From NCBI GenBank assembly GCA_009924135.1, contig RFSE01000002.1:26005-90004 (forward strand): a DNA stretch of 64,000 nucleotides. Direction: 5' to 3'. The notes under the pieces are model-generated. The model worked only from the letters and a program-made list of their open reading frames with translations. It was not told the origin of the DNA and searched no databases. Positions 41,028-60,000 of the stretch are shown in pieces. Source of the DNA: Pseudomonadota bacterium. GTDB taxonomy: Bacteria; Verrucomicrobiota; Verrucomicrobiia; Limisphaerales; SXTU01. Position numbers and translations under genes: made by a program. Position 1 is the first letter of the stretch. Every line of letters begins with the position of its first letter.

Positions 41028-42323
41028 TCAAGCAGCGGACCGCAATTCCGACAGCGCCCCCGTGCTGCTGCCAAAGCGGGCCGTCTCGATACCGGCGTGT
41101 TGCAGCATGCGCACAAACAGATTCGACATCGGAGTGTTTTTCTTCCGGTCGAAGGCGAGATGGCCGGGATGCTTGAAGCCGCCACCGGCGAAGATGACAG
41201 GCAGATTGTCAGACGAGTGCGCGGAGGCATCGCCAAGATTGCTGACGAAGAGGATCTGGGTGCGGTCTAGGAGCGGGCGGCCGTTTTCATCCGCAGCGAC
41301 CAGCTTGTCGAGGAAGCCGCCGAAGTTCCGGTATTCCTTCTCTTCGTAGCGCGCGAGCTGCTCGATCTTCGCTGGGTCCTTGCCGTGGTGTGAGGCGTCG
41401 TGATGGCCGATGGCGAGGTCAGGCTGGTTGGTCTGGTTGTGCTCGCCCAGACCGAGCACGACGAGGCGGGTGGAATCGGTCTGCAAGGCGAGCTGCACCA
41501 GCATGAACCATTGTTGCTGGCCGGCGACCCAGTGATCGGCCTTCTCGAACTCGCGCACCATCGCGGGAACTTTGGGCTTCGGTTTCGCCGCCCAGGCCTG
41601 ATCCTGCTGCAGGAAGCCCTCGGCCTCGCGGATCGAGTTGGTGAGCAGGTCCAGGCGGTCGCGGTCGGCCCCGCCGAGTTCACGGTTCAAAGATTTCAAC
41701 TGGCCGCGCACGCCATCAAGGATGCTCTGACCGTTCGCCAGGCGCTTCATCTCGCGGGTGACTTCCTCGGGCGTGCCATCCATGAAGAGGCGCCGGAAGA
41801 GCCGGGCACGGTTGTTCTCGAACGGCGTAGGCACACCCTTCTCGTTCCACGAGAGCGAGGCGCAGTTTGCCGTGTTGAGCACGAGGTGCGGTACCCGCGT
41901 CTCCGCCCCGATGCGCTGCGCGACGAACTGGTCGAGCGAGATGCTGTTGTGAATGTCGTCCGCGCGCTTGATGCCCTCCGGCGCGACGCCGGTAAAGATG
42001 GCGGACTCGGTGTGGTGCGAGTTCGGATAGCCCACATGCCCCATGCCGGAGATGACGGTGAAACGTCCCCGATGCGGCTCCAGCAACTTCAGGTAGCGTG
42101 TGGCCTCATAGTCGGGACCAGCCTTTTCCGGAAACAGGAAGGGGTAATAAGTCCCCAGCGGCCGGTGGATGAGCACCATGCGCTGCGGCTGGAGCGCCTT
42201 CGCCAACGCCTTGGACTCCGCACCAACGACCACCGGCAGCATGGCATCGAGAAGCGGCAGCGAAAGCGACACGGCGCCCGCACGGAGGAACGTACGGCGA
42301 TCAAGACAACGCGCGTTAAGCAT
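41028..42323 (-). CDS. DUF1552 domain protein with Tat-like signal
   Basis: MLNARCLDRRTFLRAGAVSLSLPLLDAMLPV; MVLIHRPLGTYYPFLFPEKAGPDYEATRYLKLLEPHRGRFTVISGMGH; paralog of 49649-51001. Confidence 0.9.
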   Translation of the reverse strand: MLNARCLDRRTFLRAGAVSLSLPLLDAMLPVVVGAESKALAKALQPQRMVLIHRPLGTYYPFLFPEKAGPDYEATRYLKLLEPHRGRFTVISGMGHVGYPNSHHTESAIFTGVAPEGIKRADDIHNSISLDQFVAQRIGAETRVPHLVLNTANCASLSWNEKGVPTPFENNRARLFRRLFMDGTPEEVTREMKRLANGQSILDGVRGQLKSLNRELGGADRDRLDLLTNSIREAEGFLQQDQAWAAKPKPKVPAMVREFEKADHWVAGQQQWFMLVQLALQTDSTRLVVLGLGEHNQTNQPDLAIGHHDASHHGKDPAKIEQLARYEEKEYRNFGGFLDKLVAADENGRPLLDRTQILFVSNLGDASAHSSDNLPVIFAGGGFKHPGHLAFDRKKNTPMSNLFVRMLQHAGIETARFGSSTGALSELRSAA

Positions 42324-42352
42324 GGGGAATGGATGGTAGAGGTGGAGGATTT

Positions 42353-42415
42353 GGCAAGGGAATTTGGGGCACAAGAATGGGAGGACAAAATTCCATTGCC
42401 CTAAATTCCTCTGCC
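42353..42415. repeat. Inverted repeat GGCAAGGGAATTTGGGGCA / TGCCCTAAATTCCTCTGCC
   Basis: Arms 42353-42371 and 42397-42415, 3 mismatches in 19. Confidence 0.75.
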
Positions 42416-42452: not shown

Positions 42453-44957
42453 TCATTTGCTGAGAAATACCGGGCTTTGCACCACGGCATGGACGAGCGC
42501 ACGGAAGCCGTGGTGCTGCTGGCGTACGTCAGTCACAATTGGTTCGACCACGGCGCGGTCGGCGAACTGGATGTCCGCGCCGGTGGCGTAGGTGAGGAGT
42601 TTTTGTGCCAGGTTGCGAGTGAGCTGGTCTGGGTCGCGCAAGAGCAGGCGCTTGTAGTCGTCAATGTTGGCAAAGGCCTGGCCGGCGGCGGTTTCGCCGG
42701 CGGGCTCGACGGGCCGGGCGAGCCAGACTTTCTTGCCCGGATAATTGGCCAGTTCCGCGTAGTCGCCCCCCTTGGGCGGCGGCTGCTTCACGCGGTAACG
42801 CTCGCGCCAGCCACCCACGACATCGAAGTTCTCCAGAGCAAACCCCGGCGGGTCGATGTGGACATGACACGAGGCGCACACGGCCACGTTCTTGTGCTTG
42901 TCCAATTGCTCACGTAGCGTCGTCGCGCCGCGAATGTCTGGCTCGATGGCGGCCACATCGGCGGGCGGAGGCGGAGGCGGTTTGCCGATGATCCGTTCCA
43001 ACATCCACGCGCCGCGCTTCACGGGCGAGGTGTAGGTGGCGTTGGTGGTGAGCTTGAGCAAGCTGGCGTGCGTGATGAGCCCGCCACGATGCGAACCAGA
43101 CGGGAGATTCACGCGGCACAGCTCCAGCCCAAGCACACCGGGCAGGCCGTAATGCTTCGCCAGCCGGGCGTTGAGGAAGGTCCAGTCCGAGTGAACGAAC
43201 GCGCTGGTGGGCAGGTCGTGGGCGAGCACCTCGGCAAAGAACTTCGTCGTCTCCAGCGGCATGGACCACGCGAGCAGGTCGTCGTATTCCAAGTAGAGCG
43301 CGTCGGGTTTCATGTCCTGAAACTTGCGCAGATCCAGCCACTGGCCGGTGAAGCCGGTGATGAACCGTTGCGCCTTCGGGTCCTTGAGCAACCGCTCCGT
43401 CTGCGCCCGCAGGTTCGCCGGCTTGAGCAACTCGCCCTTCGCCGCGAGCGCGGTCAGTTCGTCATCCGGGAGCGAATTCCACAGCAACCGCGCCAGTCGC
43501 GCCGCCACGGCAAAGTCATCGAGCCGCCCGGGCTTCTCGACGTAGAGCAGGAAGTGCGGCGAGCAAAGCGCGGCCTTGTACCCGGCGCGCATCGCCTCGC
43601 CGAAGCGCTCGCCCTGATCGAGCTGCTCGTGGACGAAGCGCACGAAGTAAGCCACGGTATCCTCGCTCACCGGCCGGCGAAAGGCGCGCGGCAGGAAGGC
43701 GCGCAACAGCCGCTCCGCATCGGCTTTCGGTTCCCGCGAGACGGGCGAGAGCGGGTACTTGGAATACTCGCCGGGGACGGACCATTTCTTCCAGTCGTCG
43801 CGGACCGGCTTGCCGGCGAGCGTGTCATCAAGGTAGCGGGAGGGCACCTGCGGCAGATCACCGAAGAGGCGCGCATAACCCACGCCCGCATCCAGCGGAC
43901 CTTCAAGTTCGATCCAATCCACCGCCAGTCCGGGGCCTTTGAAGTCGTCGCCGACCGGTTCGCCGTTGCGCTGCTTTTTCAGATCCTGAAAAAAAGTCAG
44001 GTCCAGGCCTTCGAGATAGACCTGCTCACCCGCCGGAAGCGCAGCCTCCACTTCCACGACCCGCGCACGGTCCGCTGGCGCATCGAAGTGGTCGAGCACG
44101 TGCTGGAGTTTTTCGTGGGCGAAACGGTCGGAACTGATTTTACCAACCAGCATCGGGATGGACTTGCCGTCGGTGTTCACCGCCCGGACGGACGCGCGGA
44201 TGCGATAGCGGCCCGGCGCGGGCGTGGGCGGCGTGGTGACACTGCCATGTTTGTAGAGCCGCGCGCATAACACGATGGTGTCTCCTTCGAACCGCACGAA
44301 CGGCGCGGTGCCCTCGCGATTGGGCTTGGGCCGGCTGTCGAGGAACTGCCGGCCAGTCCAGCGCCGCACGGCATTCGTCAGCGGCCACGCGGGCAGCGCG
44401 GCTGCCAGCGCCCGGTCTGCCGCCTCCTGATAACGCACCAGATGCGTGGCGGAAGTCTCCAACGCGCTGCTGACCTTATCGAAGCCCGCCGCCCCGTTGT
44501 CTTCCGGCAACAGATCTTTGAGCGGCGCGGTGATGCCGAGCAGGTCATGCACCGTGTGCTCGTATTCCGTGCGGTTCATCCGCCGCACCACGACGCGGCC
44601 CGCCGCCTGCTGGCGGGCGGCGGACGCCGTGTGAAGTTCCGTGCCGAGCGATTTTAAGAACGCGCCGCGTTCCTCCGGAGCAGGCTGCGTACTTTTCTTC
44701 GGCGGCATCTCGCCCTTCGCCAGGCGGTCGAACAACTTTTCCCAGATTGCGAAGGACTTGGGCGTGCTCCAGTTGGGTTGAAGCGCAACCAGGTCCAACC
44801 CGCCCTTCTTGGTGTCCGCGTCATGGCACTCGATGCAATGCGCTTTAATAAACGCGGCCGGTGTTGCCGCAGCAGAAGCGGTACAGACGACCGCAATCAA
44901 GACGAAGCAATTTAGGGCAAAGCGCTTCATGTATTTCCAAATTTCGTGCATCCTCAA
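42453..44957 (-). CDS. DUF1592-type (DUF1587/1592/1588/1585) secreted protein with c-type haem motifs
   Basis: CIECH near N-terminus; MNRTEYEHTVHDLLG; RRPVSEDTVAYFVRF; SPHFLLYVE; SDWTFLNARLAKHYGLPGV; CASCHVHIDPPGFALENFD. Confidence 0.92.
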   Translation of the reverse strand: MRMHEIWKYMKRFALNCFVLIAVVCTASAAATPAAFIKAHCIECHDADTKKGGLDLVALQPNWSTPKSFAIWEKLFDRLAKGEMPPKKSTQPAPEERGAFLKSLGTELHTASAARQQAAGRVVVRRMNRTEYEHTVHDLLGITAPLKDLLPEDNGAAGFDKVSSALETSATHLVRYQEAADRALAAALPAWPLTNAVRRWTGRQFLDSRPKPNREGTAPFVRFEGDTIVLCARLYKHGSVTTPPTPAPGRYRIRASVRAVNTDGKSIPMLVGKISSDRFAHEKLQHVLDHFDAPADRARVVEVEAALPAGEQVYLEGLDLTFFQDLKKQRNGEPVGDDFKGPGLAVDWIELEGPLDAGVGYARLFGDLPQVPSRYLDDTLAGKPVRDDWKKWSVPGEYSKYPLSPVSREPKADAERLLRAFLPRAFRRPVSEDTVAYFVRFVHEQLDQGERFGEAMRAGYKAALCSPHFLLYVEKPGRLDDFAVAARLARLLWNSLPDDELTALAAKGELLKPANLRAQTERLLKDPKAQRFITGFTGQWLDLRKFQDMKPDALYLEYDDLLAWSMPLETTKFFAEVLAHDLPTSAFVHSDWTFLNARLAKHYGLPGVLGLELCRVNLPSGSHRGGLITHASLLKLTTNATYTSPVKRGAWMLERIIGKPPPPPPADVAAIEPDIRGATTLREQLDKHKNVAVCASCHVHIDPPGFALENFDVVGGWRERYRVKQPPPKGGDYAELANYPGKKVWLARPVEPAGETAAGQAFANIDDYKRLLLRDPDQLTRNLAQKLLTYATGADIQFADRAVVEPIVTDVRQQHHGFRALVHAVVQSPVFLSK

Positions 44958-44961
44958 TTGA

Positions 44962-46113
44962 TTACCGGTCCTCCATGAACTTCACCCGCTCCTCAGAGGG
45001 GATGGTCACGAATTTCCAAGTGTCGCACTTCACGCGGATGATGCGGCCGGGGCGGTAGCCGTCGAGCAGTTCGGCGAACTTCATCCGGATCTGGATGCCG
45101 CTGCTGCCGGGCGGCGGGTTCGGCGTTTCCTTCCACTCGACCACCTGGCCGATCTTCTTGTCGCTGCGATGAAACCAAGTGCGCAGGGTCTTCTCGGCGA
45201 CCGCCACGCCGTAGCCTTTGTCCTGCGTGGTCTTGAGGTCGTCGTAGAGCGATTGATCCATGCCGCCGAAGAGCGTGAGGGTGACGAGGCCGCCGCCAAA
45301 GTCGAAGTTCTCCACGGCATCAATCCAGCCGGGCAACCAGCGTTGACGTTGGAAGAGTACGTGCCGACGCCGCTGGTGTTCCGTGGCGGCCTGGCGGGCC
45401 GCATCATCCAGCCAGAGGTCGGAGACCGTGAACTCCTTGTCGCGCCAGCCCTGCGACCAGGTGAGATTGAGCTGGACCGTGGTGTCGGGCGCGACGTCCT
45501 TCAACTCGACCCGCGTGCGGCCTTTCCAAACCCGGGTGACATTGTCGATGTCGATGATGTAGGGCTTGTTGATGCCATCCTTCGCCATGGTTCCCGTCGG
45601 GGTCACGTTCAACTTGCCCTTGGCTTCATCGACCGAAACCACCTTCCAAGCCTGGCCCCGGCGCTGGTAAAAACTGAAGTCATCTTCGAGCGAGAGGCCG
45701 TGGTTGTATTTGATTTCATATTTCTCCTGGCTCTTGGGCAACGGCGGGATGGTCTTCTCCTCACCCGGCGGCGGCACGAAAAAGTATCCGTGCAGGTGCG
45801 TGCCGATGGGAATGTCGCGCAGCTCCGCAGGTGCGCCGTTGAACCAGCACATGGCATACGGCAGCAGGGCGAACGAATGCAGCGCGCCGGATTGATAACG
45901 GTCGTGCGGCTCATTGCCATCAATGCGCAACGCGCCGCGCCGGTTGGCGGGATCAAGCACCACCAGTTCGCCGGACAAGTAGTGACCTGAGTCGGGCGGC
46001 GGAAACTGGCCGGGCTGGGGAATGTGGTCGGCGGCGGAAACGGAGTGTGCCAGCGGTGACATGGCAGCACCGAGACCAAGCAGATGGAGGAACTGGCGGC
46101 GGGAAAGTTTCAT
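44962..46113 (-). CDS. Unassigned exported family X, copy 1
   Basis: Tat-like MKLSRRQFLHLLGLGAA; PQPGQFPPPDSGHYLSGELVVLDPANRRGALRIDG...APAELRDIPIGTHLHGYFFVPP...SLEDDFSFYQRRGQAWKV. Clear paralog of 48510-49652. Confidence 0.85.
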   Translation of the reverse strand: MKLSRRQFLHLLGLGAAMSPLAHSVSAADHIPQPGQFPPPDSGHYLSGELVVLDPANRRGALRIDGNEPHDRYQSGALHSFALLPYAMCWFNGAPAELRDIPIGTHLHGYFFVPPPGEEKTIPPLPKSQEKYEIKYNHGLSLEDDFSFYQRRGQAWKVVSVDEAKGKLNVTPTGTMAKDGINKPYIIDIDNVTRVWKGRTRVELKDVAPDTTVQLNLTWSQGWRDKEFTVSDLWLDDAARQAATEHQRRRHVLFQRQRWLPGWIDAVENFDFGGGLVTLTLFGGMDQSLYDDLKTTQDKGYGVAVAEKTLRTWFHRSDKKIGQVVEWKETPNPPPGSSGIQIRMKFAELLDGYRPGRIIRVKCDTWKFVTIPSEERVKFMEDR

Positions 46114-46136
46114 TTCTTGATGTGCTCGGAACGGAC

Positions 46137-48470
46137 CTACCTTTTCTGAAACAACTCAGACAGCACCAGCCGTTCGATGACCGGCTTGAGGCGGTAGTCC
46201 TCCGCTTTGCAATCGCGGGCAATGGTGCGCAACGCCGTTGCATCGTCCGAAGTCATCGCACGGCGCAGGGCGAAGGTGGCGAGCTGCTCGACAAACGCCT
46301 CGGAAAAGCGGTCAAGGTCCTGCACGAGCAACTGCTTGAAGGATTCCGGGCCGTCATAGGCACGACCATCGGGCAGCTTGCCGCTCGCGTTCACGGGAGG
46401 ATTTGCGCCCTGCCCGGACTTCATGGCCTCTTCCGTGCGCCAGCGCCCGATGGCGTCAAAATTGTCGAAAGCAAAACCGAGCGGGTCGATGCGCTGGTGG
46501 CAGGCGGCGCAGTTGGCGTGGGTCGAGTGCGCCTCGAGTTGCTGGCGGATGGTCGCCTTGGGTTTGTTGCTGGGCGTGGGTTCCAGCGGATCGACATTGG
46601 GCGGCGGTGGCGGCGGCGTTTTGGCAAAAACGGCTTCCGACACCCACACGCCACGGTGCACCGGCCGATGCCGCGTGCCGTCAGAGGTAAGCATGAGCAC
46701 GCTGGCGTGCGTGAGCAGGCCGCCCCGATGATCCTCCGGACGCAAGGTCACGCGCTGGAACGAAGACGCTGCGGGAGGCGGCATCTGGTAATGCATGGCG
46801 AGCCGTGCGTTCAACATGGTCCAGTCCGACGCGAGGAATTCACGCAGGGACAAGTTCCGCGCGAAGACCTCCGTGAAATAGCTGACCGATTCCAGCACCA
46901 TGCTTTGTTCAAGCCACTTGTCGTAGTCGGGGAAAAGCTCGGTATCCGGCGGAAAGACGCCGACCTTGTGAAGCTGCAGCCATTGCTTCGGGAACGCGTC
47001 GGTGAACCGCTTGATCTTCGGGTCGGCAAACATGCGGGCGACCTGGGCTCGCAGCACCGCCGGTTCGTGGAGCTTGCCCGCTTGTGCGGCGGCAGCCAGT
47101 TCGCTGTCCGGCATCGAACCCCAGAGGAAGTAGGACAGGCGCGAGGCGAGTTCCCAGTCGTTGACCTGGGCGCGGCGCTGCTTGGCTGAGCCTTCTTCGA
47201 GGTAATAAAAGTTCTTCGCGGTAAGCACCCCGATCATGCCGGCGAGATACGCGGAACGGAACTTTTCGCCCGCCGCCAGCTCACCCGCGATGACCTTCAT
47301 GAAGCGCTCGATATCCGCATCTGCAACTGGCCGCCGCCAGGCGCGCGTGGCGAACTGTTTCAGACATTCGCGCGCTTCGGCGAGGTCGCCGGCCTTGGTG
47401 GGAAAGAGGCCTTCGCGCTTTTTCTGATCGGCTTCGGTGAGAATGGGGCCCTCCCACTCCACCCAGTCCACGATCAGGAGCGGAAAGATCGAACGACCTT
47501 CCTCGTCGAGCAGCTTGTAGGTCTTTGGCGCGACGTTTTTAAGGTCGTTCAGACTGGAGAACGGCATGGAGCTGATGTTCGGGGTCTGACCGTCGGAGAG
47601 CATGCCCGGGGCTTCGTTCAACAGGTCGAGGCTGCCCTCGGGGAGAAACGTCTCGATCTCCACGACGGTCGGCTTGCCCTCGGGGGCCTGCACGTCCTGG
47701 CCGGTGATGGAACGTTTCAATCCGTGATGCCATACGGCCAGATGCGGCAACCGGCCCTTGAACGAAGGCACGGCACTGAGCTGGACGCGGATGCGATAAA
47801 GTCCCGGTGCCGTGGCGCGCAAGTTGCCGCGCCGATGCCCCGGCGCGATCAACCAGCGGGTGCCAGGCGCAGCTTCGCTCCGACCCTTGCCCGCCTTCGC
47901 CGGCGACTCGGGGAAGGCCCGGTCCAGCACGGTCTCGGCGGCCTTGAAGTAGCGGTCCACATGCGATGGCGAGAGCGACAACATCGAGCCGATGCGCTCG
48001 AAGCCGTGCCAGCGCGGGTCTTCGTTGAAAGCACCAGGCGCATCCACATCGAAGTAAACGCCAAGCAGGTCGTAAACCGTGTGGCCGTATTCCTCGCGGC
48101 TCAACCGGTAGTGCGCCACTGGCCCGCGCTTGGCCATGCGGGCCGCCTCGCCCTCCTTGAGACGCGAGGAAATCCAGTCCACGACCGGCCCCAGCTCGAC
48201 CGCCTTGGGCTGCGGTTCCTTCTTGGGCGGCATCTCGCGGGTGCTGATGCGGAACAAAACCTCGGCCCAGCGCTGGGCCTCCACCGGGTCCGTGAAATCT
48301 GCCGACAGCTTGTCCACGCGGAACTCGCCCTTCTGCTGCTTCTCGCCGTGGCAACGGAGGCAATGGTCGGCGAAGAAAGCCTTGGTCGGGGACTCGGCGG
48401 CGAATGCTGGGGCGGCCCAGCCGAAACCGGCGGCCAGACCGACGGCAAACCAACGTAACTTTAAGTTCAT
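46137..48470 (-). CDS. DUF1592-type secreted protein with c-type haem motifs
   Basis: CLRCHGEKQQKGEFRVDKL; LSREEYGHTVYDLLGVYFDVDAPGAFNEDPRWHGFERIGSMLSLSPSHVDRYFKAAE; CAACHQRIDPLGFAFDNFD. Confidence 0.92.
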   Translation of the reverse strand: MNLKLRWFAVGLAAGFGWAAPAFAAESPTKAFFADHCLRCHGEKQQKGEFRVDKLSADFTDPVEAQRWAEVLFRISTREMPPKKEPQPKAVELGPVVDWISSRLKEGEAARMAKRGPVAHYRLSREEYGHTVYDLLGVYFDVDAPGAFNEDPRWHGFERIGSMLSLSPSHVDRYFKAAETVLDRAFPESPAKAGKGRSEAAPGTRWLIAPGHRRGNLRATAPGLYRIRVQLSAVPSFKGRLPHLAVWHHGLKRSITGQDVQAPEGKPTVVEIETFLPEGSLDLLNEAPGMLSDGQTPNISSMPFSSLNDLKNVAPKTYKLLDEEGRSIFPLLIVDWVEWEGPILTEADQKKREGLFPTKAGDLAEARECLKQFATRAWRRPVADADIERFMKVIAGELAAGEKFRSAYLAGMIGVLTAKNFYYLEEGSAKQRRAQVNDWELASRLSYFLWGSMPDSELAAAAQAGKLHEPAVLRAQVARMFADPKIKRFTDAFPKQWLQLHKVGVFPPDTELFPDYDKWLEQSMVLESVSYFTEVFARNLSLREFLASDWTMLNARLAMHYQMPPPAASSFQRVTLRPEDHRGGLLTHASVLMLTSDGTRHRPVHRGVWVSEAVFAKTPPPPPPNVDPLEPTPSNKPKATIRQQLEAHSTHANCAACHQRIDPLGFAFDNFDAIGRWRTEEAMKSGQGANPPVNASGKLPDGRAYDGPESFKQLLVQDLDRFSEAFVEQLATFALRRAMTSDDATALRTIARDCKAEDYRLKPVIERLVLSELFQKR

Positions 48471-48509
48471 CTCGGAGAAAAATGCAGGCATGGCAAGCGG
48501 CCCCGTTGA

Positions 48510-49652
48510 TTAACGGTCATCGAAGTTCTTCACGCGTTCCTCGGGCGGCAGCTTCACATTGGGAAAGCCGCTGGGGCGAAAGCGGACGATCCGGCCGGGG
48601 CGAAATCCCTCCAGCAGTTCGTTCAGTTGCACCCGCAGTTGCAGGCCGCTGCTACCGGATGGCGGATTCGGCAGATCCTTGACCCCGACCACCGAGCCGC
48701 CCTTGTTATCATGCTCCTGCCACCAACTACGCAGGGTCGGTTCTGCGGCAGCGATGGCGGCACTTTTGGCCGTCCGCGCCCGCTCGTATAACGTCGGGTC
48801 CATGCCGCCAAAGAGCGTGACGGTGACGATGCCCTTGCCGCCGGGCTGATGCTCGACGTTATCCACCCACCCAGCCAGCCACCGGTGCAACTGATGCCGG
48901 ATGTGAATCTGTCGCTGCTGCTCCGTGGCGAGCTTGCGGCTGTCCTCGTCGAGCCAGACATCCGCCACCTGAAGCTGGCCGTTCTTCCAGTCGGGAGCCC
49001 ACGTGAAGTTCAACTGGACGGACTGGTCCGCAGCGAGGTCTTCCAGTTCGCCCGCCGCCCGGCCCTTCCACACACGGGTGGAGCGGTCCATTTCAAAAGT
49101 CTGCTCGCCTTTTAACCCGTCGGCATCCGCCTTGCCCGTCGCCACGATCCTGAGCTTGCCCGCCTTCACGTCAGCCGACGTGATTTTCCAAGCCCGGCCG
49201 CGTCGCAGATAAAAGCTGAAGTCATCCTCCAGCGAGAGCGCATGGGTGTATTTGACCCCATACCGCGAATTCTTCTCCGGAGGCGGGATCGATTTGTCAT
49301 CTGCCGGCGGCAGGACGAAATACCCGTGGAGCAAAGTGCCGATGGGAATGTCCCGCAGCTCCGCCGGTGCGCCGTGATGGCTGATCGTGCCGTAGGGCAG
49401 GAGCGCGAAGCGGTGTGATGGTGCCGAGTGATACCGGTCGTCCACGCCATCACCCACGAACCGGATGGCCCCGCGGCGGTTCACGTGATCCACGGAGATC
49501 AGTTCACCGGCGAAATAATGGCCAACATTCGGCGGGGGAAACTGGCCGGGCTGCGGAACGAACTCAGACTTCTCCTGTCCGCCCGCATAATGTGCGAGCA
49601 GACAAACCGTGAACGTCAGAATGCAGCGCAGGTCTTGAGCAACCGCCCTCAA
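48510..49652 (-). CDS. Unassigned exported family X, copy 2
   Basis: PQPGQFPPPNVGHYFAGELISVDHVNRRGAIRFVGDG...APAELRDIPIGTLLHGYFVLPP...SLEDDFSFYLRRGRAWKI...VTLFGGMDPTLY; TTG start overlapping the preceding stop. Confidence 0.85.
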   Translation of the reverse strand: MRAVAQDLRCILTFTVCLLAHYAGGQEKSEFVPQPGQFPPPNVGHYFAGELISVDHVNRRGAIRFVGDGVDDRYHSAPSHRFALLPYGTISHHGAPAELRDIPIGTLLHGYFVLPPADDKSIPPPEKNSRYGVKYTHALSLEDDFSFYLRRGRAWKITSADVKAGKLRIVATGKADADGLKGEQTFEMDRSTRVWKGRAAGELEDLAADQSVQLNFTWAPDWKNGQLQVADVWLDEDSRKLATEQQRQIHIRHQLHRWLAGWVDNVEHQPGGKGIVTVTLFGGMDPTLYERARTAKSAAIAAAEPTLRSWWQEHDNKGGSVVGVKDLPNPPSGSSGLQLRVQLNELLEGFRPGRIVRFRPSGFPNVKLPPEERVKNFDDR

Positions 49653-51001
49653 GCCGACACCTCCGAGACGATGCCCAGGCTGTCGGCGAACTTCTCGGTC
49701 TTCACGTTCATTTTTTGCGCCATCGTCAACAGCAGGTTGCTCAGGCGCGCCTTTTCGTTCACCGGCTTGAAGTGGATGGCCGGGTGTTTGTCGTAGCCTT
49801 TAAACTCGGGCACGAGGTTGAAGTCCACATGCCGTCCATGTTTGAGCCCGAGCTTGGTGCCGCCCGCGAGGATGAGCGGCAGGCTGGCGTTGCCGTGGCT
49901 GTGCCCGTAGGCCATGCCGCTGCCGTAGAGCGCCATGGTCGTGTTGATCAGCGGGCCGTCGGCGTCCGACACTTCCTTCAAACGGCCGATGAAGTAGCTG
50001 AACTGCGCGATGTTGAACGCGTCGCTCTCCATGAGCTGGCGCATCAGATCGGGGTTGCCGTTGTGATGCGAAAGCGAGTGGCGGTCCTGCTTGATGCCGA
50101 TTTCCGGCACCGCCGGCCCCTGCCCTTCCAAGCCGGTGGCAAAAGTAGCCACGCGCGTCATGTCCGTCTGGAACGCCAGCACAATGATGTCGTACATCGT
50201 ACGGAGGTAGTCGCCGAGCATCTGGAGTGAGATGTCGCGGTTGAGCTTCGAGTGGATGGACGGCTCGATCTTCGGGCGCGGCGTATCGAGCCACTTGTCT
50301 GAACGTTCGGTGCGGATTTCCACCTCGCGCACGGCGGTGAGGTATTGTTCCAACCGGCCCTTGTCTTCGTTGCCCAACTGGCCGCTGAGACTGCGTGCCT
50401 CGTCCAGAACGGCGTCAATGATGCTGCCGCGCCGTTGATAACCCCGGCGTTGCTTGGCGATGCCACCCTTCGGATCTTCGAACAACTCGCGGAAGGCCAG
50501 GCCGGGGCTGAACGTGGCCGGCAATTGGATGCCATCGGGATTCACCGCCAGCGAGCCCCCCTGATTGCTCAGTTCCAGGGAGGAATAACGGGTGATCGGC
50601 GCGGTCACCTGGGCCATGAGCTGATCGACGGAAATGGTGTTGCGCACCGACTGCCCGATCTTGCCACCCGTCAGCCAGATGCTCTGGCAGTTGTGATGGT
50701 TGCCCAGGCCGTTGGGATGGTGCAGGCCGCTGAACGGCGTGACGACGTCACGATGCGGCTCCAACGATACGAGCGGCTTGGATAACTTGTAGTCGGGACC
50801 GGCCTCCTTGATCTGGTAGTCGGCGGTGCAGACGCCGTTGGGCAGATAGATGAAAACACTGCGCCGCGCCTTGAGCGCCGGGTCTGCCGTCGCCGCGCGG
50901 AGCGGTTGCATGCAGTCCAGAAACGGCAGGGCCATCGTGACGCCGAGGCCCTTGAGCGCATGCCGTCGGGTAAGCAACCAGTTTTGGCGGGGAACATTCA
51001 T
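49649..51001 (-). CDS. DUF1552 domain protein
   Basis: WLLTRRHALKGLGVTMALPFLDCMQPL; FIYLPNGVCTADYQIKEAGPDYKLSKPLVSLEPHRDVVTPFSGLHH. Confidence 0.9.
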   Translation of the reverse strand: MNVPRQNWLLTRRHALKGLGVTMALPFLDCMQPLRAATADPALKARRSVFIYLPNGVCTADYQIKEAGPDYKLSKPLVSLEPHRDVVTPFSGLHHPNGLGNHHNCQSIWLTGGKIGQSVRNTISVDQLMAQVTAPITRYSSLELSNQGGSLAVNPDGIQLPATFSPGLAFRELFEDPKGGIAKQRRGYQRRGSIIDAVLDEARSLSGQLGNEDKGRLEQYLTAVREVEIRTERSDKWLDTPRPKIEPSIHSKLNRDISLQMLGDYLRTMYDIIVLAFQTDMTRVATFATGLEGQGPAVPEIGIKQDRHSLSHHNGNPDLMRQLMESDAFNIAQFSYFIGRLKEVSDADGPLINTTMALYGSGMAYGHSHGNASLPLILAGGTKLGLKHGRHVDFNLVPEFKGYDKHPAIHFKPVNEKARLSNLLLTMAQKMNVKTEKFADSLGIVSEVSA

Positions 51002-51026: not shown

Positions 51027-53441
51027 CTAGCGCTTCTGAAAAAAGTCGGACAGGACGAAGGCTTCCAGCGTGGCCTGGAGTTTGTATTCGTTCCGGCCCG
51101 CAGCCGAAGCCACGGCCTTCAACGCAGCAGCATCGTCAATGGTCATCGCGCGGCGGAGAGCAAACGTGGCGAGTTGCTCCACAAACGCCTCGGCGAACCG
51201 GTCCAGGTCCTGCACCAGCAGTTGTTTGAACGCCTCCGGCCCGTCGTAGGCACGGCCATCCACCAGCTTCCCGCCGGCGTTCACCGGTGGATTGGCTCCC
51301 TTGCCCGCCGTCACCCGTTCCTCGGTGCGCCATTGGCCAACCGCATCGTAGTTGTCGAAAGCGAAGCCCAACGGGTCAATCCGCTGATGGCATGCCGCAC
51401 ACGTGGCGTGCGTCGCGTGCGCTTCGAGCTGCTGGCGGACGGTGGCTTTCGGTTTGTCGCTGGGGGTCGTTTCGAGCGGGTCGACATTGGGTGGCGGCGG
51501 TGGCGGCGTTTTGCCAAAGATGGCTTCCGACACCCACACGCCGCGATGCACCGGCCGATGCCGCGTGCCATCGGAGGTGAGCATCAGGATGCCCGCCTGC
51601 GTGAGCAACCCGCCCCGATGATCCTCCGGCCGGAGCGCGACGCGCTGGAAACCCGACGCCTTCAGCGGCGGAAGCTGGTAGTGCTCGGCCAGACGTGGGT
51701 TGACCATGGTCCAGTCAGAACTCAGGAACTCACGCAGCGACCGGTTTTGGTTGAACACTTCGCTGAAAAAGGCGACCGACTCCAGCACCATGCTTTGCTC
51801 CAGCCATTTGTCGTAGTCGGGATACAACTTCGGGTCCGGCGGGAACATCCCGACCTTGTGCAGTTGCAACCACTGGCGCGGAAACGCCCCGGTAAAGCGC
51901 TTGATTTTGGGGTCGGCCAACATCCGCCTGAACTGCGCACGCAAGGTGTCCGGTTCGTGCAACCTGCCCGCTTGCGCCGTGGTGAATAGTTCCTCGTCCG
52001 GCAGTGAGCCCCAGAGTAAGAACGACAAGCGTGCGGCCAATTCCCAGTCGTTCACCCGGTCCCGCCGCTGCGTGGCTGAGCCCTCTTCGAGGTAATAGAA
52101 ATTCTTGGACGTGAGGATGCCCACCATGGCCGCACGGTAGGCCGCGCGGAACTTCTCCCCGGCTGCCAGTTCGCGCTCGATCACCTTCACATACCGCTCC
52201 AACTCGGCCTCGGTCACCGGCCTCCGCCAGGCACGGGTGGCCAGCCGCTGGAGACAAAGGCGCGCTTCCGCAAGGTCGCCGTCCTTCTTGGGCACCAAGC
52301 CATCGCGCTTCTTCAAATCGCCTTCGCTGACAAGCGGACCTTCCCACTCGACCCAATCCACCATCAGCATCGGGTAAAGCGGCTGACGATCGTCGTCGAA
52401 CAACTTGTAGCCGGTCGGGTTCAGGCGGCGCATGTCCCGCGTGCTGGTGAAAACGCTGCCGCCCCCGTTAAGCACGTTGAGCGTGTGGTTGCCGACCTCG
52501 CTGAACACCGGCGGCACCTCATGCACCAGGTCGTACCCACCCGGTGAAAGGTCGGCTTCGAACTCGATCACGATGGGCTGGTCCTCGGGTGCGAGGATGT
52601 CCTGATCGTACACCGAGCGCTTCAACTGCTGATGCCACAGCGAGAGGTGCGGCGTGCGCCCTCCGGGCGGGCGCAGCCCACTCAACTGGATGCGCACGCG
52701 GTATGTCCCCGGCAGCGTGGTGGTCATGGCGTGCCGCCGGTTGGCCGGCCACATGGGCCAGCGCACGCGGTTGGTAACGCCTTGTTCGTCCATCCACTTT
52801 TCGCGCCGTTCGTTGGCGTCCCGCCGGATCTTCGTGGTTTTGACCGGCTGCTCGGGAAACGCCCGCTCCAGCACCGTCTCCGCCGCCTTGAAATACCGGT
52901 CCACATGCGAAGGTGAGAGCGACAACATCGAGCCGATCCGCTCGAAACCGTGCCAGCGCGGGTCCTCGTTGAACGCCCCGGGCAGGTTCACGTCGAAATG
53001 CACCCCGAGAAGGTCAGAGACGGTGTGGGCGTATTCGTCCCGGCTCAGTCGGTAATGGGCCACCGGCCCGCGTTTGGCCATGCGCGTCGCCTCACCTTCA
53101 TTGAGACGGGTGGAAATCCAATCGACGGCCTTGCCCAGTTCAGCGGACGTGGGTTGGGGTTCCTTCTTCGGCGGCATCTCGCGGGAGTTGATGCGGTAGA
53201 GTACCTCACCCCAGCGTTGCGCGTTCGCGAGACCGGCGAAATCGGCGGGCAGTTGGTCCACCCGGAAGTCCCCTTTCGCCTGCTTCTCCCCGTGGCAACG
53301 GACGCAGTGATCGGCGAAAAACGCCTTGGTCGGAAGTTCTGCTGCGAGAGCGACGTACGGAGCGAGGCACGCAAGCATGGCGAGTCCGATCTGCTTGAGT
53401 AAAAAGCTAGGAGAACTGGCCTTCATGCACCCACGAACCAA
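51027..53441 (-). CDS. DUF1592-type secreted protein with c-type haem motifs
   Basis: CVRCHGEKQAKGDFRVDQL; LSRDEYAHTVSDLLGVHFDVNLPGAFNEDPRWHGFERIGSMLSLSPSHVDRYFKAAE; CAACHQRIDPLGFAFDNYD. Very similar to 46137-48470. Confidence 0.92.
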   Translation of the reverse strand: MVRGCMKASSPSFLLKQIGLAMLACLAPYVALAAELPTKAFFADHCVRCHGEKQAKGDFRVDQLPADFAGLANAQRWGEVLYRINSREMPPKKEPQPTSAELGKAVDWISTRLNEGEATRMAKRGPVAHYRLSRDEYAHTVSDLLGVHFDVNLPGAFNEDPRWHGFERIGSMLSLSPSHVDRYFKAAETVLERAFPEQPVKTTKIRRDANERREKWMDEQGVTNRVRWPMWPANRRHAMTTTLPGTYRVRIQLSGLRPPGGRTPHLSLWHQQLKRSVYDQDILAPEDQPIVIEFEADLSPGGYDLVHEVPPVFSEVGNHTLNVLNGGGSVFTSTRDMRRLNPTGYKLFDDDRQPLYPMLMVDWVEWEGPLVSEGDLKKRDGLVPKKDGDLAEARLCLQRLATRAWRRPVTEAELERYVKVIERELAAGEKFRAAYRAAMVGILTSKNFYYLEEGSATQRRDRVNDWELAARLSFLLWGSLPDEELFTTAQAGRLHEPDTLRAQFRRMLADPKIKRFTGAFPRQWLQLHKVGMFPPDPKLYPDYDKWLEQSMVLESVAFFSEVFNQNRSLREFLSSDWTMVNPRLAEHYQLPPLKASGFQRVALRPEDHRGGLLTQAGILMLTSDGTRHRPVHRGVWVSEAIFGKTPPPPPPNVDPLETTPSDKPKATVRQQLEAHATHATCAACHQRIDPLGFAFDNYDAVGQWRTEERVTAGKGANPPVNAGGKLVDGRAYDGPEAFKQLLVQDLDRFAEAFVEQLATFALRRAMTIDDAAALKAVASAAGRNEYKLQATLEAFVLSDFFQKR

Positions 53442-53477: not shown

Positions 53478-54803
53478 TCATCCGAACAGCTCCGTCACGA
53501 GCCGCCCTTCGTCGAGGATGCTCACCGGGCGGCCGTCCGGGGTGTGGATTTCACCGCGCGGGTCGAGGCCAAGACTGTCGTAGATGGTCCACGCCACATC
53601 GGCGGGCTTCACCGGCGTGTCAGTCACGAAGGCCCCGGTGCGGTCCGTTGCGCCCACGACCTTGCCACGCGCGACGCCCGCGCCCGCGAAGAGCAGGCTG
53701 GCCGCCTGGCCCCAGTGATCGCGGCCGGTGTCCTTGTTGATCTTCGGCGACCGGCCGAACTCGCCCATGCACACGACCAGCGTGTCCTTCAGCAGACCAT
53801 GGGCATCCATGTCATGGATGAAAGTCGAGAAACCCTGGTCGAACTCGGGCAGCTTCTTGTCGAGGCTCGTAAATATCTTCGCGTGATGGTCCCAGCCGCC
53901 GTAATTCACGGTCACGAACCGGACCCCGTGCTGCACCAGCCGGCGTGCGAGCAACACGCTCTGGCCGAAGGTGTTGCGTCCGTAGTCGTCGCGCAGTTTG
54001 TCTGTCTCCTGCTCGATGGCAAAGGCGTCCTGCGCATCGCGGGAAAGCACCATCTCGGCGGCGCGCTGCTGGAACTCACCGTAGGTGGCAAGCTGGTCGT
54101 TGCCCTCGACGCGTTTGGCAAGGTTGTCCACGGCGGCCAGCAGGGACTTGCGACGCACCGCGTTCTCGCGCTTCACCTCGGCGGGCAGCGCCAGGTCGCG
54201 GACCTTGAAGTTCTCCGCGTTCGGATCGCCGGCCTTGAAGGATTCGCAACGACCGCCGAGGAACGCGCTCTTGCCCAGTTCCCAGGTGAAGGAGGGATTG
54301 CGCGGCACCGCCACGTAGGGCGGCATCACCCCGCTGAAACCGGTGCGCTGCGCCACCACGGCACCCATCGCCGGATAATCGCCGAAGGCCGAGCCGAACC
54401 GGCCCGAGAGCACCCAGTTGGTGGCGGTCTCATGGTGGTCGTTGTTGTGCGCCCCGGAGCGGACCAGCGTGAGCTTGTCCATCGTCTTCGCCATCTTGGG
54501 CAGCAACTCGCCCACGTGCAGGCCGGGGACGTTCGTGGGAATTTCGGTGTACTTGCCGCGCACCTCGGACGAAGCCTCCGGCTTCAGGTCGAAGCTGTCG
54601 TGATGCGAGAGTCCGCCGCCGAGATAGACGAGCACGACGGACTTGGCGCGGGCCTTCTTGTCCGTGCCGGCCGCCTGCTCCGCTGCGAGAAGCGAGGATA
54701 ACGAAAGACCCAGTGGCGCAAGCGCGCCGACGCGCAGGAAGTCCCGGCGCGCCCAGCCGTTACAAAAGCGGTGCGGATTCGGATTGAGCTGGATGTCGAG
54801 CAT
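53478..54803 (-). CDS. DUF1501 domain protein
   Basis: RRDFLRVGALAPLGLSLSSLLA; SVVLVYLGGGLSHHDSFDLKPEASSEVRGKYTEIPTNVPGLHVGELLPKMA; VCMGEFGRSPKINKDTGRDHWGQAASLLFAGAGV. Confidence 0.95.
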   Translation of the reverse strand: MLDIQLNPNPHRFCNGWARRDFLRVGALAPLGLSLSSLLAAEQAAGTDKKARAKSVVLVYLGGGLSHHDSFDLKPEASSEVRGKYTEIPTNVPGLHVGELLPKMAKTMDKLTLVRSGAHNNDHHETATNWVLSGRFGSAFGDYPAMGAVVAQRTGFSGVMPPYVAVPRNPSFTWELGKSAFLGGRCESFKAGDPNAENFKVRDLALPAEVKRENAVRRKSLLAAVDNLAKRVEGNDQLATYGEFQQRAAEMVLSRDAQDAFAIEQETDKLRDDYGRNTFGQSVLLARRLVQHGVRFVTVNYGGWDHHAKIFTSLDKKLPEFDQGFSTFIHDMDAHGLLKDTLVVCMGEFGRSPKINKDTGRDHWGQAASLLFAGAGVARGKVVGATDRTGAFVTDTPVKPADVAWTIYDSLGLDPRGEIHTPDGRPVSILDEGRLVTELFG

Positions 54804-56218: not shown

Positions 56219-57667
56219 TTACGCCGTCGCTTTTGCGGCGGCGAGGTCGTTGCGGCGGTCGGCCATGCTCTTGAAGAACTCGTAGCCTTCGCGGACGCGG
56301 CGGACGCAGACGTCCTTGTCCTCCAGCATCGTCTGAATGATGCGCAGGACGGGCTTGGTCCGCAGGTAGTAGCGGTGGTAGAAGCGCTCGACGCTCTCGA
56401 AGATTTCCTCCTTCGTACAGCCGGGATACGCCAGCGTGCTCTGCTGGAGGCCGTCGTCTTCCACGAGGTCGGTCTTGTCCTTTTTCACGAACCAGCCGTT
56501 GAGCTTGGCCTGTTCGTAGAGTTCGGTGCCGGGATACGGTGCGGCGAGGGAGACTTGCAGGCTGAAGACATCGAGTTCCTCCGCGAACCGGATGGTCTGC
56601 TCGATGGTTTCGCGCGTCTCGACGGGCAGGCCGAGGATGAAGGTGCCGTGAATCACCACGCCCGCCTTGTGGCAGTCCTTGGTGAAGCGGCGCATCTCGT
56701 CGGTGGTGACGCCCTTCTTGATGCGCGTGAGGGTGTCGTCGTTGCCGCTCTCGTAGCCGACGAGGAAGAGGCGGAGGCCGTTGTCCTTGAAGCTCTTGAT
56801 GGTGTCGTAATCGAGGTTCGCGCGGCTGTTGCAGGACCAGTCCACGCTGAGCGGGCCGAGCTTCTTCGCGATCTCGCGGGCGCGCGGGAGGTTGGCGGTA
56901 AAGGTGTCGTCATCGAAGAAGAACTCCCGGACCTGCGGGAAGACCTTCTTCATGTAGGCCATCTCGTCCGCGACGTTTTGCGCGCTGCGGACGCGGTATT
57001 TGTGCCCGCCGATGGTCTGCGGCCAGAGGCAGAAGGTGCACTGCGCCGGGCAGCCCCGGCCCGTGTACATGCTGACGTAGGGATGCTGGAGGTAGCCGAT
57101 GAAATACTTCTCGATGTCGAGGTCGCGCTGGTACACGTCGGCCACCCACGGGAGGGTGTCCATGTCGGCGATCATCTCGCGTTCGGGGTTGTGTTTGATT
57201 TTGCCTTCGTCGTCCCGGTAGGAGAGGCCCTTGATGCTGGCGAGGTCGCGGCCTTCGGCGACTTCCTTGCAGGTGAAGTCGAACTCCTTGCGCCCGACCC
57301 AGTCAATGGCCCACGAGGCCTTGAGCGTCTCGGCGGGCAGGACCATCGCGTGCGCGCCGACGAAACCGATCTTCGTGGCGGGCTTCTGCTGCTTGATGGC
57401 CTCGGCGACGCGGCAGTCGTTCTTCAGCGAGGGCGTGGAAGTGTTGATGATGACATGGTCGTAGCCCTTGGCGATGCGCAGGCATTCCTCGACGCCGATG
57501 TTGTGGGGCGGGCAGTCGAGCAGCCGCGAGCCGGGCACGAGGGCGGCGGGCTGGGCGAGCCAGGTGGGATACCAGTAGCTGGTGACCTCGCGCCGGGCCT
57601 GGTAGCGCGCGCCGGCACCACCGTCAAAGCCGTCGAAGGAGGGCGGGGAGAGGAAGAGGGTGCTCAT
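56219..57667 (-). CDS. hpnJ: Hopanoid biosynthesis B12-binding radical SAM protein HpnJ
   Basis: MSTLFLSPPSFDGFDGGAGARYQARREVTSYWYPTWLAQPAALVPGSRLLDCPPHNI; CPAQCTFCLWPQTIGGHKYRVRS radical SAM CxxxCxxC. Confidence 0.93.
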   Translation of the reverse strand: MSTLFLSPPSFDGFDGGAGARYQARREVTSYWYPTWLAQPAALVPGSRLLDCPPHNIGVEECLRIAKGYDHVIINTSTPSLKNDCRVAEAIKQQKPATKIGFVGAHAMVLPAETLKASWAIDWVGRKEFDFTCKEVAEGRDLASIKGLSYRDDEGKIKHNPEREMIADMDTLPWVADVYQRDLDIEKYFIGYLQHPYVSMYTGRGCPAQCTFCLWPQTIGGHKYRVRSAQNVADEMAYMKKVFPQVREFFFDDDTFTANLPRAREIAKKLGPLSVDWSCNSRANLDYDTIKSFKDNGLRLFLVGYESGNDDTLTRIKKGVTTDEMRRFTKDCHKAGVVIHGTFILGLPVETRETIEQTIRFAEELDVFSLQVSLAAPYPGTELYEQAKLNGWFVKKDKTDLVEDDGLQQSTLAYPGCTKEEIFESVERFYHRYYLRTKPVLRIIQTMLEDKDVCVRRVREGYEFFKSMADRRNDLAAAKATA

Positions 57668-57675
57668 TGGGAAGG

Positions 57676-57710
57676 AGTCAGGAGTCGGAAGTCAGAAGTT
57701 AGAAGTCAAT
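57676..57710. repeat. Heptamer repeat AGTNNNN x5 upstream of hpnJ
   Basis: agtcagg agtcgga agtcaga agttaga agtcaat. Confidence 0.88.
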
Positions 57711-57732
57711 TGGCGGATGGCGCGGGGAAGAA

Positions 57733-58128
57733 CTACGGGAGGCTTCGCTGAATGAGTTCGATCAGCAGTCCCACATCACGCCGATGCGTGTCGTAATCGG
57801 CTCCCAAGTCGGTCCAATCGCCACCCGGATAATGCTGAGCGAAAAACTCCTGCGTCAGATCGTCGGACACGGTTCGAAACTGCATGAATGCCGGGCCATA
57901 AACAATAGCTTCCTTTAGCAAGTGGACCAAATCGTGAGTTTTCTGAAGCTTCCAGCCACGTGCGATCAGATAGCCCATGAGGTATCGCTCGGCCGCCTCT
58001 TGTAGTAATTCGAGCCCGGATGGGGTGGTGCCTTCCATGGACCAGAGAACATCAGCTGCTCTCAATCGGTCCCCGGCAAGGTAAAACCAGTCCGCCGGAT
58101 CCGCTTCGGAGGACTGTTTACGCTGCAT
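57733..58128 (-). CDS. HEPN-domain protein (toxin of HEPN/MNT pair)
   Basis: DWFYLAGDRLRAADVLW...LELLQEAAERYLMGYLIARGWKLQKTHDLVHLL. Confidence 0.82.
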   Translation of the reverse strand: MQRKQSSEADPADWFYLAGDRLRAADVLWSMEGTTPSGLELLQEAAERYLMGYLIARGWKLQKTHDLVHLLKEAIVYGPAFMQFRTVSDDLTQEFFAQHYPGGDWTDLGADYDTHRRDVGLLIELIQRSLP

Positions 58129-58549
58129 AAACTTCCAGCCCTTTGCCGATGATTTCTTCGTAAAAAGGACTATGCGCCGCAACCCGTTCAGCGATCCGGG
58201 CGGAGGTCTTGGCCAGAATTGTGAAGGCCGGGCGATCCGCTGGCACATCCCAGAGCGAATGCAAAATCTCCTTTGTGCCCCGGTTCTCCGAGGGCATGTC
58301 ATCCCGGACCACGAGGATGTCCACGTCGCTGTCCCAGCGCGGTTCACCGTAAATCTGGCTGCCGAAGATGATGATCTTCCGGGGATGAAACCGCTCGACG
58401 ATATGGCTCAAGTACGGCTCCACGCGATGCGCGATGCGATGCACCGGATAGCGCGGGTCGTGCAAGGCCGGGAAACGCGTCCCCGCCGGGGCCGACGGGA
58501 CGACTGCCGGGCGCACTTCGTTGGTGGCATCGGCGTCCATCGCGCGCAC
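58118..58549 (-). CDS. Minimal nucleotidyltransferase (MNT) antitoxin
   Basis: RKIIIFGSQIYGEPRWDSDVDILVV is a GS...DxD nucleotidyltransferase motif; overlaps the HEPN start. Confidence 0.85.
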   Translation of the reverse strand: MRAMDADATNEVRPAVVPSAPAGTRFPALHDPRYPVHRIAHRVEPYLSHIVERFHPRKIIIFGSQIYGEPRWDSDVDILVVRDDMPSENRGTKEILHSLWDVPADRPAFTILAKTSARIAERVAAHSPFYEEIIGKGLEVYAA

Positions 58550-58557
58550 AGAAGTGA

Positions 58558-60000
58558 CTACTCCGTCTTCGACGTGACCGAGCCGTTGGCCTTGATCTTG
58601 GCCAGCAGGTCGTCGCGCTGGGAAGTGTCACCGGAGCCGCAGCCGCCACCGGCGGCCGGGGTGGCGTGGGTGTGTTCCTCTTCCTTGCGGGAGAAGGCAC
58701 CACGGGCGCTGGCAGCGGGATTGATCGCGGCCTTGGCCTCGGCGAGGTGCCCCTTGCCGATGGTCACGCCGTTGTAGGCGCGCTTCTCCAGCTCCGGGGT
58801 CGCGGCGAAAGGCTTGGGCCGGGCGCCGAAGTTGTACTTCATGTTGATCCAGCTATCGCGCGGCTTGTCGCTGAGCGCGCCGCTCGGATCGTAGCCGCAG
58901 TGGACCATGCAGTGCTCGCAACGCGGGTCGCGTGCCACGCCGTCCACCACGCCGTACTTCTCCCAGACCACCTTGCCGAGCATCTCGGCGTAGGTCGGAT
59001 AATGACCGTCGGTCATCAGGTAGCACGGCGCTTTCCAGCCCTTGACGTTGTAGGTCGGGATGGCCCACGCGGTGCAGGTCAGCTCGCGCTTGCCGGCGAG
59101 GAACTCCTGATACACCGGCGTGCCGAAGATGGTGAAGAGCTGGCCCCATTCCTCGATCTTGGCGAACTTCTTCCGCGTCATGTCGCGGGTGAGGAAGAAC
59201 TCCTTGGGATCGCGGCCGAGGCGCTTGACCATGTCCTTCTTGGCGGCGTCGTAATCGTAGCCGGGCGAAATCGTGTGGCCGTCCACGTCGAGGGAGCTGA
59301 GGAACTTGAACATGTCCTCCAGCTCCTGCACGTCGGTTTCCTTGTAAACGGTCGTATTCGTCGCGGTCTGATACCCGAGAATCTTGGCCATCTTGATGGC
59401 GGCGACGCATTCCTTGAAGACGCCCTCGCGCTCGACGATGAGGTCGTGGGTGAATTCCAGGCCGTCCACGTGGACGTTCCAATACATCCACTTGCTGGGC
59501 TTGATGACCACCTTGGCCTTGGCGGCGGCATCGGCATGGCGGATGGCTTCGGCTTCCTTCTCGGTGATGAGCTTGGCGTCCAGCAGCTTCTGCATGCGCT
59601 TTTCGTGCACGGGATTCGCCGCGTCGTAAACAGTGGCAAAGTACTCGCGCATCTTTTTCCGCATGAAGACGCCGTTGGTGCAGATGTAAATGATGCGGCC
59701 CTGCTCGCGCAGCCCGGCCACCAGCTCCTCGATCTTCGGGTAGATCAACGGCTCACCGCCGCAGATGGAGACCATCGGTGCGTCGCAATCCTGCGCAGCC
59801 CCGAGACATTGCTCCAGCGGCACCATGTCCTTGAGCGAGGTGGAATACTCGCGGATGCGCCCGCACCCGGTGCACGTGAGGTTGCACGTGTGCAACGGCT
59901 CCAACTGGAGGACCATGGCGAACTTGGGAGCCCGCTTGATCATCTTGTGTTTGACGATGTGGCTGGCGATCTTGACCGTCAGCGCGAGTGGGAAGCGCAT
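58558..60000 (-). CDS. hpnH: Hopanoid biosynthesis radical SAM protein HpnH, extended
   Basis: MRFPLALTVKIASHIVKHKMIKRAPKFAMVLQLEPLHTCNLTCTGCGRIREYSTSLKDMVPLEQCLGAAQDCDAPMVSICGGEPLIYP; C-terminal CEHCMVHCGYDPSGAL. Confidence 0.93.
   Translation of the reverse strand: MRFPLALTVKIASHIVKHKMIKRAPKFAMVLQLEPLHTCNLTCTGCGRIREYSTSLKDMVPLEQCLGAAQDCDAPMVSICGGEPLIYPKIEELVAGLREQGRIIYICTNGVFMRKKMREYFATVYDAANPVHEKRMQKLLDAKLITEKEAEAIRHADAAAKAKVVIKPSKWMYWNVHVDGLEFTHDLIVEREGVFKECVAAIKMAKILGYQTATNTTVYKETDVQELEDMFKFLSSLDVDGHTISPGYDYDAAKKDMVKRLGRDPKEFFLTRDMTRKKFAKIEEWGQLFTIFGTPVYQEFLAGKRELTCTAWAIPTYNVKGWKAPCYLMTDGHYPTYAEMLGKVVWEKYGVVDGVARDPRCEHCMVHCGYDPSGALSDKPRDSWINMKYNFGARPKPFAATPELEKRAYNGVTIGKGHLAEAKAAINPAASARGAFSRKEEEHTHATPAAGGGCGSGDTSQRDDLLAKIKANGSVTSKTE

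Follow-up and report, generated by a model that had tools for sequence, protein, structure and literature searches.

A candidate accessory family of exported proteins encoded beside one clade of DUF1552 genes

Two exported proteins, X1 and X2, belong to a family that we call X and that marks a three-gene module, DUF1592-DUF1552-X. On balance, we favor a reading in which X serves one DUF1592-DUF1552 clade as a dedicated exported accessory, probably without catalytic activity, and is built from tandem OB-like (CusF-shaped) small barrels. These genomes encode many DUF1552 and DUF1592 proteins (the source genome has 31 DUF1552 genes), and neither family has a known function; our search of the literature on both families found none. 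Since X is locked to one clade, it singles out, from the many pairs, those that make up one functional type.

Organization of the locus

The window, meaning the whole stretch of 64,000 nucleotides that was analyzed, carries the following genes, given in the order of transcription:

DUF1501, 53478-54803, minus strand: same-strand gene upstream; not constantly found near X.
DUF1592c, 51027-53441, minus strand: PSCyt1 + PSD3/5/4 + PSCyt3 + PSD2 with two CxxCH motifs; directly upstream of DUF1552b.
DUF1552b (HXXSHH), 49649-51001, minus strand: member of the clade followed by X; predicted alkaline-phosphatase/sulfatase-superfamily fold.
X2, 48510-49652, minus strand: 380 aa, TTG start, 52% identical to its paralogue X1; N terminus Sec-like on inspection.
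DUF1592b, 46137-48491, minus strand: architecture as in DUF1592c, two CxxCH motifs; between X2 and X1.
X1, 44962-46113, minus strand: 383 aa, ATG start, exported, Tat-like signal SRRQFLHLLGLG; predicted tandem small-beta-barrel fold.
DUF1592a, 42453-44957, minus strand: two CxxCH motifs; goes with DUF1552a, a pair type normally without X.
DUF1552a, 41028-42374, minus strand: shares 29% identity with DUF1552b; not in the X-linked clade.

DUF1592b and DUF1592c are 68% identical, whereas DUF1592a shares only about 32% identity with either of them. The initial annotation had placed each X copy just upstream of a DUF1592 gene and had the second copy overlapping a DUF1552 stop, and we recovered both arrangements. 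The gap is 4 nt from the end of X1 to the DUF1592a ORF (42453-44957) and 18 nt from the end of X2 to the DUF1592b ORF (46137-48491), and the TTG start of X2 overlaps the DUF1552b stop by 4 nt (TTGA). X2 belongs behind the DUF1592c-DUF1552b pair (51027-53441 and 49649-51001), a relation that had been missed from coordinates alone. Elsewhere in the window, positions 56219-60000 hold two radical-SAM-like genes, which we take to be reminiscent of hopanoid biosynthesis.

X1 and X2 as exported paralogues of an unnamed family

The two X ORFs had been described as two copies with a set of shared motifs. Those motifs are present in both proteins, which align over 366 residues with 52% identity (E=1e-132). 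Their signals are of different types, Tat-like in X1 and ordinary hydrophobic in X2 (by inspection), and a twin-arginine pattern was found in only 5 of 55 X homologues. In related genomes, the orthologues of X1 and X2 have dN/dS values of 0.08-0.14, indicating purifying selection, and both copies are therefore maintained.

No Pfam or NCBIfam model reached its cut-off with X1 or X2, no Pfam model did so with the 51 X homologues, and a PDB sequence search with X returned no significant match; searching with the X alignment likewise yielded no hit above cut-off. The profile searches thus did not place X in any characterized family, and its earlier description as an unassigned exported family without a named domain still holds across Pfam, NCBIfam and PDB sequences. 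Judged by sequence, X is a genuine family of exported bacterial proteins that had no name before. The source genome has six copies; within the order, 62 of the 293 genomes searched have homologues, as do 8 of the 289 that sample the phylum Verrucomicrobiota, and the plasmid records that we searched for X gave no match.

Distant, shorter homologues of about 330 aa were also seen (L158:5829-6815, L055:4845-5879, L166:11150-12160 and others); they are not always linked to DUF1552/DUF1592, and the two that were scanned had no Pfam match. Public MAG records that bear the names Klebsiella pneumoniae or Akkermansia muciniphila (L007, L010 and L011) also hold the X module, with 82-87% identity in X. 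These records match contigs from genomes assigned to the genus or order of the window, and their names look wrong.

Gene neighborhood of X

We analyzed 67 X copies in fetched neighborhoods, from loci chosen for containing X and including near relatives, so that copies do not equal independent events; the genomes are MAG-like and fragmented, and some starts given by the simple gene caller are unsure. A DUF1552 gene lay on the same strand within 6.5 kb of X for 63 of the 67 copies, a DUF1592 gene was near 58, and both were near 56. X stood directly behind DUF1552 in 45/67 copies, often with a 4-nt overlap, and directly behind another X in 13. From the position behind DUF1552 and the presence of both partners, X therefore marks a three-gene module, DUF1592-DUF1552-X. 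Another order, DUF1552-X-DUF1592, was observed in L171-L173. In the source genome, five of the six X copies lie with one of the 31 DUF1552 genes (chance about 1e-6).

These results bear on the earlier proposal that X is a candidate partner subunit of DUF1592. The linkage is very strong, and X holds up as a candidate partner; DUF1592 is usually near, upstream of DUF1552. However, the constant neighbor is one DUF1552 clade, and we rejected pairing with DUF1592 as the main rule because X directly precedes a DUF1592 gene in only 11/67 copies.

The source genome also contains an orphan X with no DUF1552 or DUF1592 nearby (L055:7939-9006) and a DUF1552 gene of the clade without X (L168:6962-8341); X is therefore separable. 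In G001, G003, G008 and G010, relatives of the two lie side by side, and the DUF1552-X unit thus seems to have been split in the source genome. As a separate observation, a small exported gene (N terminus FALDPHVEAVIRTVE, leucine-rich-repeat-like by eye) lies directly downstream of X in L069, L070 and L088.

One DUF1552 clade carries X

Since the X loci had been selected for holding X, we ran the reverse search, using DUF1552b as the query in 40 relatives. A clean gap separated the clade (at least 329 bits and at least 48% identity) from all other matches (at most 227 bits). By manual reading of the search lists against X positions, X was beside 28 of the 29 clade genes that were not truncated at the edge of a contig. 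From the same reading, 15 genomes had both X and the clade, 24 had neither, one had X only and none had the clade only (Fisher p=4e-10). Outside the clade, a single X association was found in these relatives. In a maximum-likelihood tree, the X-linked DUF1552 proteins formed one clade with 100/100 support, and the only X-linked row outside it was G038, where X adjoins a pair of the DUF1592a/DUF1552a type. The X tree and the DUF1552 tree contain the same four subfamilies in a compatible unrooted arrangement. In these searches and trees, X is a new and clade-restricted family, and since it is nearly always found with one DUF1552/DUF1592 branch, it probably serves that branch as a dedicated helper rather than partnering DUF1592 alone.

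Such a distribution also has to be weighed against other roles. X could help DUF1552/DUF1592 to fold or to be exported, acting in assembly only and outside the working complex, and its place directly after DUF1552 with a 4-nt overlap, its own export and its non-catalytic-looking fold would all be in keeping with this. We nevertheless judge this role unlikely, because X goes with one DUF1552 clade only although export and haem problems face all members, and because the tandem X duplicates are left unexplained. Lower in our ranking, and doubtful, is the idea that X works independently in the same pathway, as an enzyme or a binding protein that is co-transcribed with the pair but makes no physical contact with it: the orphan X and the distant 330-aa homologues standing alone near other genes speak for it, whereas X lacks a catalytic-looking conserved cluster and is tightly congruent, clade to clade, with DUF1552.

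Partner proteins DUF1552 and DUF1592

The DUF1592 and DUF1552 Pfam matches at the locus are far above cut-off, and a pair of CxxCH motifs, which signal covalent haem binding, occurs in each of the three DUF1592 proteins. The DUF1552b model (pLDDT 91.9) matched 10 PDB structures at E<=1e-3, all of them sulfatases (best E=7.7e-6, prob 1.00, TM 0.42). Across 66 DUF1552 sequences, H63, H268, H272, H329, D86 and D240 (numbering of the modeled stretch) are invariant, and the four His look like a metal site. The formylglycine signature C/S-x-P-x-R was present anywhere in only 9 of the 66 rows and is not conserved.

On plasmid pMSHV of Sphingobium herbicidovorans (L155), the pair opens a DUF1592-DUF1552-cytochrome c-cytochrome b-SDR cluster. 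The cytochrome c and b genes behind this pair favor an electron-transfer role for DUF1592-DUF1552, and the cluster is well suited to working out what the pair does. It lies near a TonB receptor gene and a Rieske-domain gene, and similar DUF1552 genes are found on many Sphingobium plasmids. Outside the X clade, the third genes behind DUF1552 encode cytochromes c/b, ankyrin repeats or DUF1080. One such gene on a Novosphingobium plasmid (L156:13292-14623), behind DUF1592-DUF1552 and X-like by size, was rejected as an X candidate since it is ankyrin-repeat-like by eye.

Predicted structure of X

The AlphaFold/Foldseek check proposed in the initial annotation was run on X1 and gave a confident model, with CusF as the closest fold and no significant sequence relation. 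The model, built with 51 homologues (pLDDT 90.6, pTM 0.89), is mostly strands, with a single long helix preceding the final barrel. It suggests successive small barrels, three by a count based on the order and lengths of the strands and not on coordinates. The CusF match (prob 1.00, CusF-normalised TM 0.66-0.70, E=1.8e-3) covers about 85 columns of 356 residues and points to a likely OB-like barrel. The domains beyond the matched one have no clear structural relative, the viral fold library gave nothing significant with the X model, and a profile comparison of the three domains for internal repeats found no sequence similarity. The CusF family PF11604 matched 2 of the 51 X members, with a best E of 0.16, which is not significant.

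Among the 51 X sequences, conserved Cys and Met are absent, conserved His are few, and conserved positions are mostly Gly, Arg, Leu, Pro and Asp. We rejected X as a CusF member on its ligands, as the weak domain-2 alignment has no Met/His/Trp copper set in register, and a CusF function for X is unsupported. Of the roles considered, the least probable is that X acts in the periplasm as CusF does, as a carrier of metal or a metallochaperone, and supplies the multi-His site of DUF1552. In its favor, CusF is the closest solved fold, the four invariant His of DUF1552 resemble a metal site, and conservation in X reaches 88-96% at H17, H81 and H224. Against it, X lacks the ligands, conserved Cys or Met and significant sequence similarity, is far larger than CusF, and occurs with one clade only, yet the His are common to all DUF1552 proteins.

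Proposed role of X

We return to X as a dedicated accessory of the DUF1592-DUF1552 pair. X would bind the DUF1552 protein in the periplasm, and the translational coupling of the two genes favors their co-assembly; we infer the term subunit from gene linkage. X might then dock DUF1552 to the cytochrome protein DUF1592, or present substrate to DUF1552. Going by its fold and invariant residues, DUF1552 could be the catalytic part and would carry the metal site, with electrons exiting via the DUF1592 haems. The presence at this locus of a second X paralogue and a second related DUF1592 gene suggests that the DUF1592-DUF1552-X unit exists here in parallel or hetero-oligomeric versions. A bolder form of the hypothesis, which we regard as speculative and improbable, posits a new type of periplasmic oxidoreductase. 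In it, DUF1552, an alkaline-phosphatase-fold protein turned metal-dependent redox catalyst, would feed electrons to the di-haem DUF1592, and X would be the enzyme's specificity or docking subunit. As a small and confidently folded protein, X offers a bait for finding complexes and substrates.

Comparison with known systems

CusF, a periplasmic Cu/Ag-binding OB barrel, is the best PDB fold match of X; however, X has about 356 mature residues and several predicted barrels, and the CusF ligands are not conserved in it. DUF5666 was matched by one divergent X homologue (E=6e-4), but at 20.4 bits this falls below the Pfam cut-off of 27. DUF1552 resembles the alkaline-phosphatase/sulfatase superfamily in fold (E=7.7e-6, prob 1.00), but differs from sulfatases in its TM of only 0.42 and in having four invariant His instead of a conserved C/S-x-P-x-R.

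Cbp2D of Cellvibrio japonicus, which combines DUF1587 with the haem domain X183, has had this haem domain studied as an electron donor for polysaccharide monooxygenase (LPMO) (PMC8981238). As described there, it is like the DUF1592 proteins of our locus in being an exported c-type cytochrome protein with DUF1587 (PSD3), whereas the passage on Cbp2D makes no mention of a DUF1552 or X partner (PMC8981238). Among the PSCyt/PSD genes of freshwater Verrucomicrobia, PSCyt3 is usually beside one unknown gene family, to which no function was given (He et al., 2017, PMC5615132). The locus described here has the same pair, with full Pfam matches, as the DUF1592-DUF1552 pairs (PSCyt3/PSD + HXXSHH) of Planctomycetota, Verrucomicrobiota and others, but its module adds a third, dedicated gene, X, found with one DUF1552 clade only.
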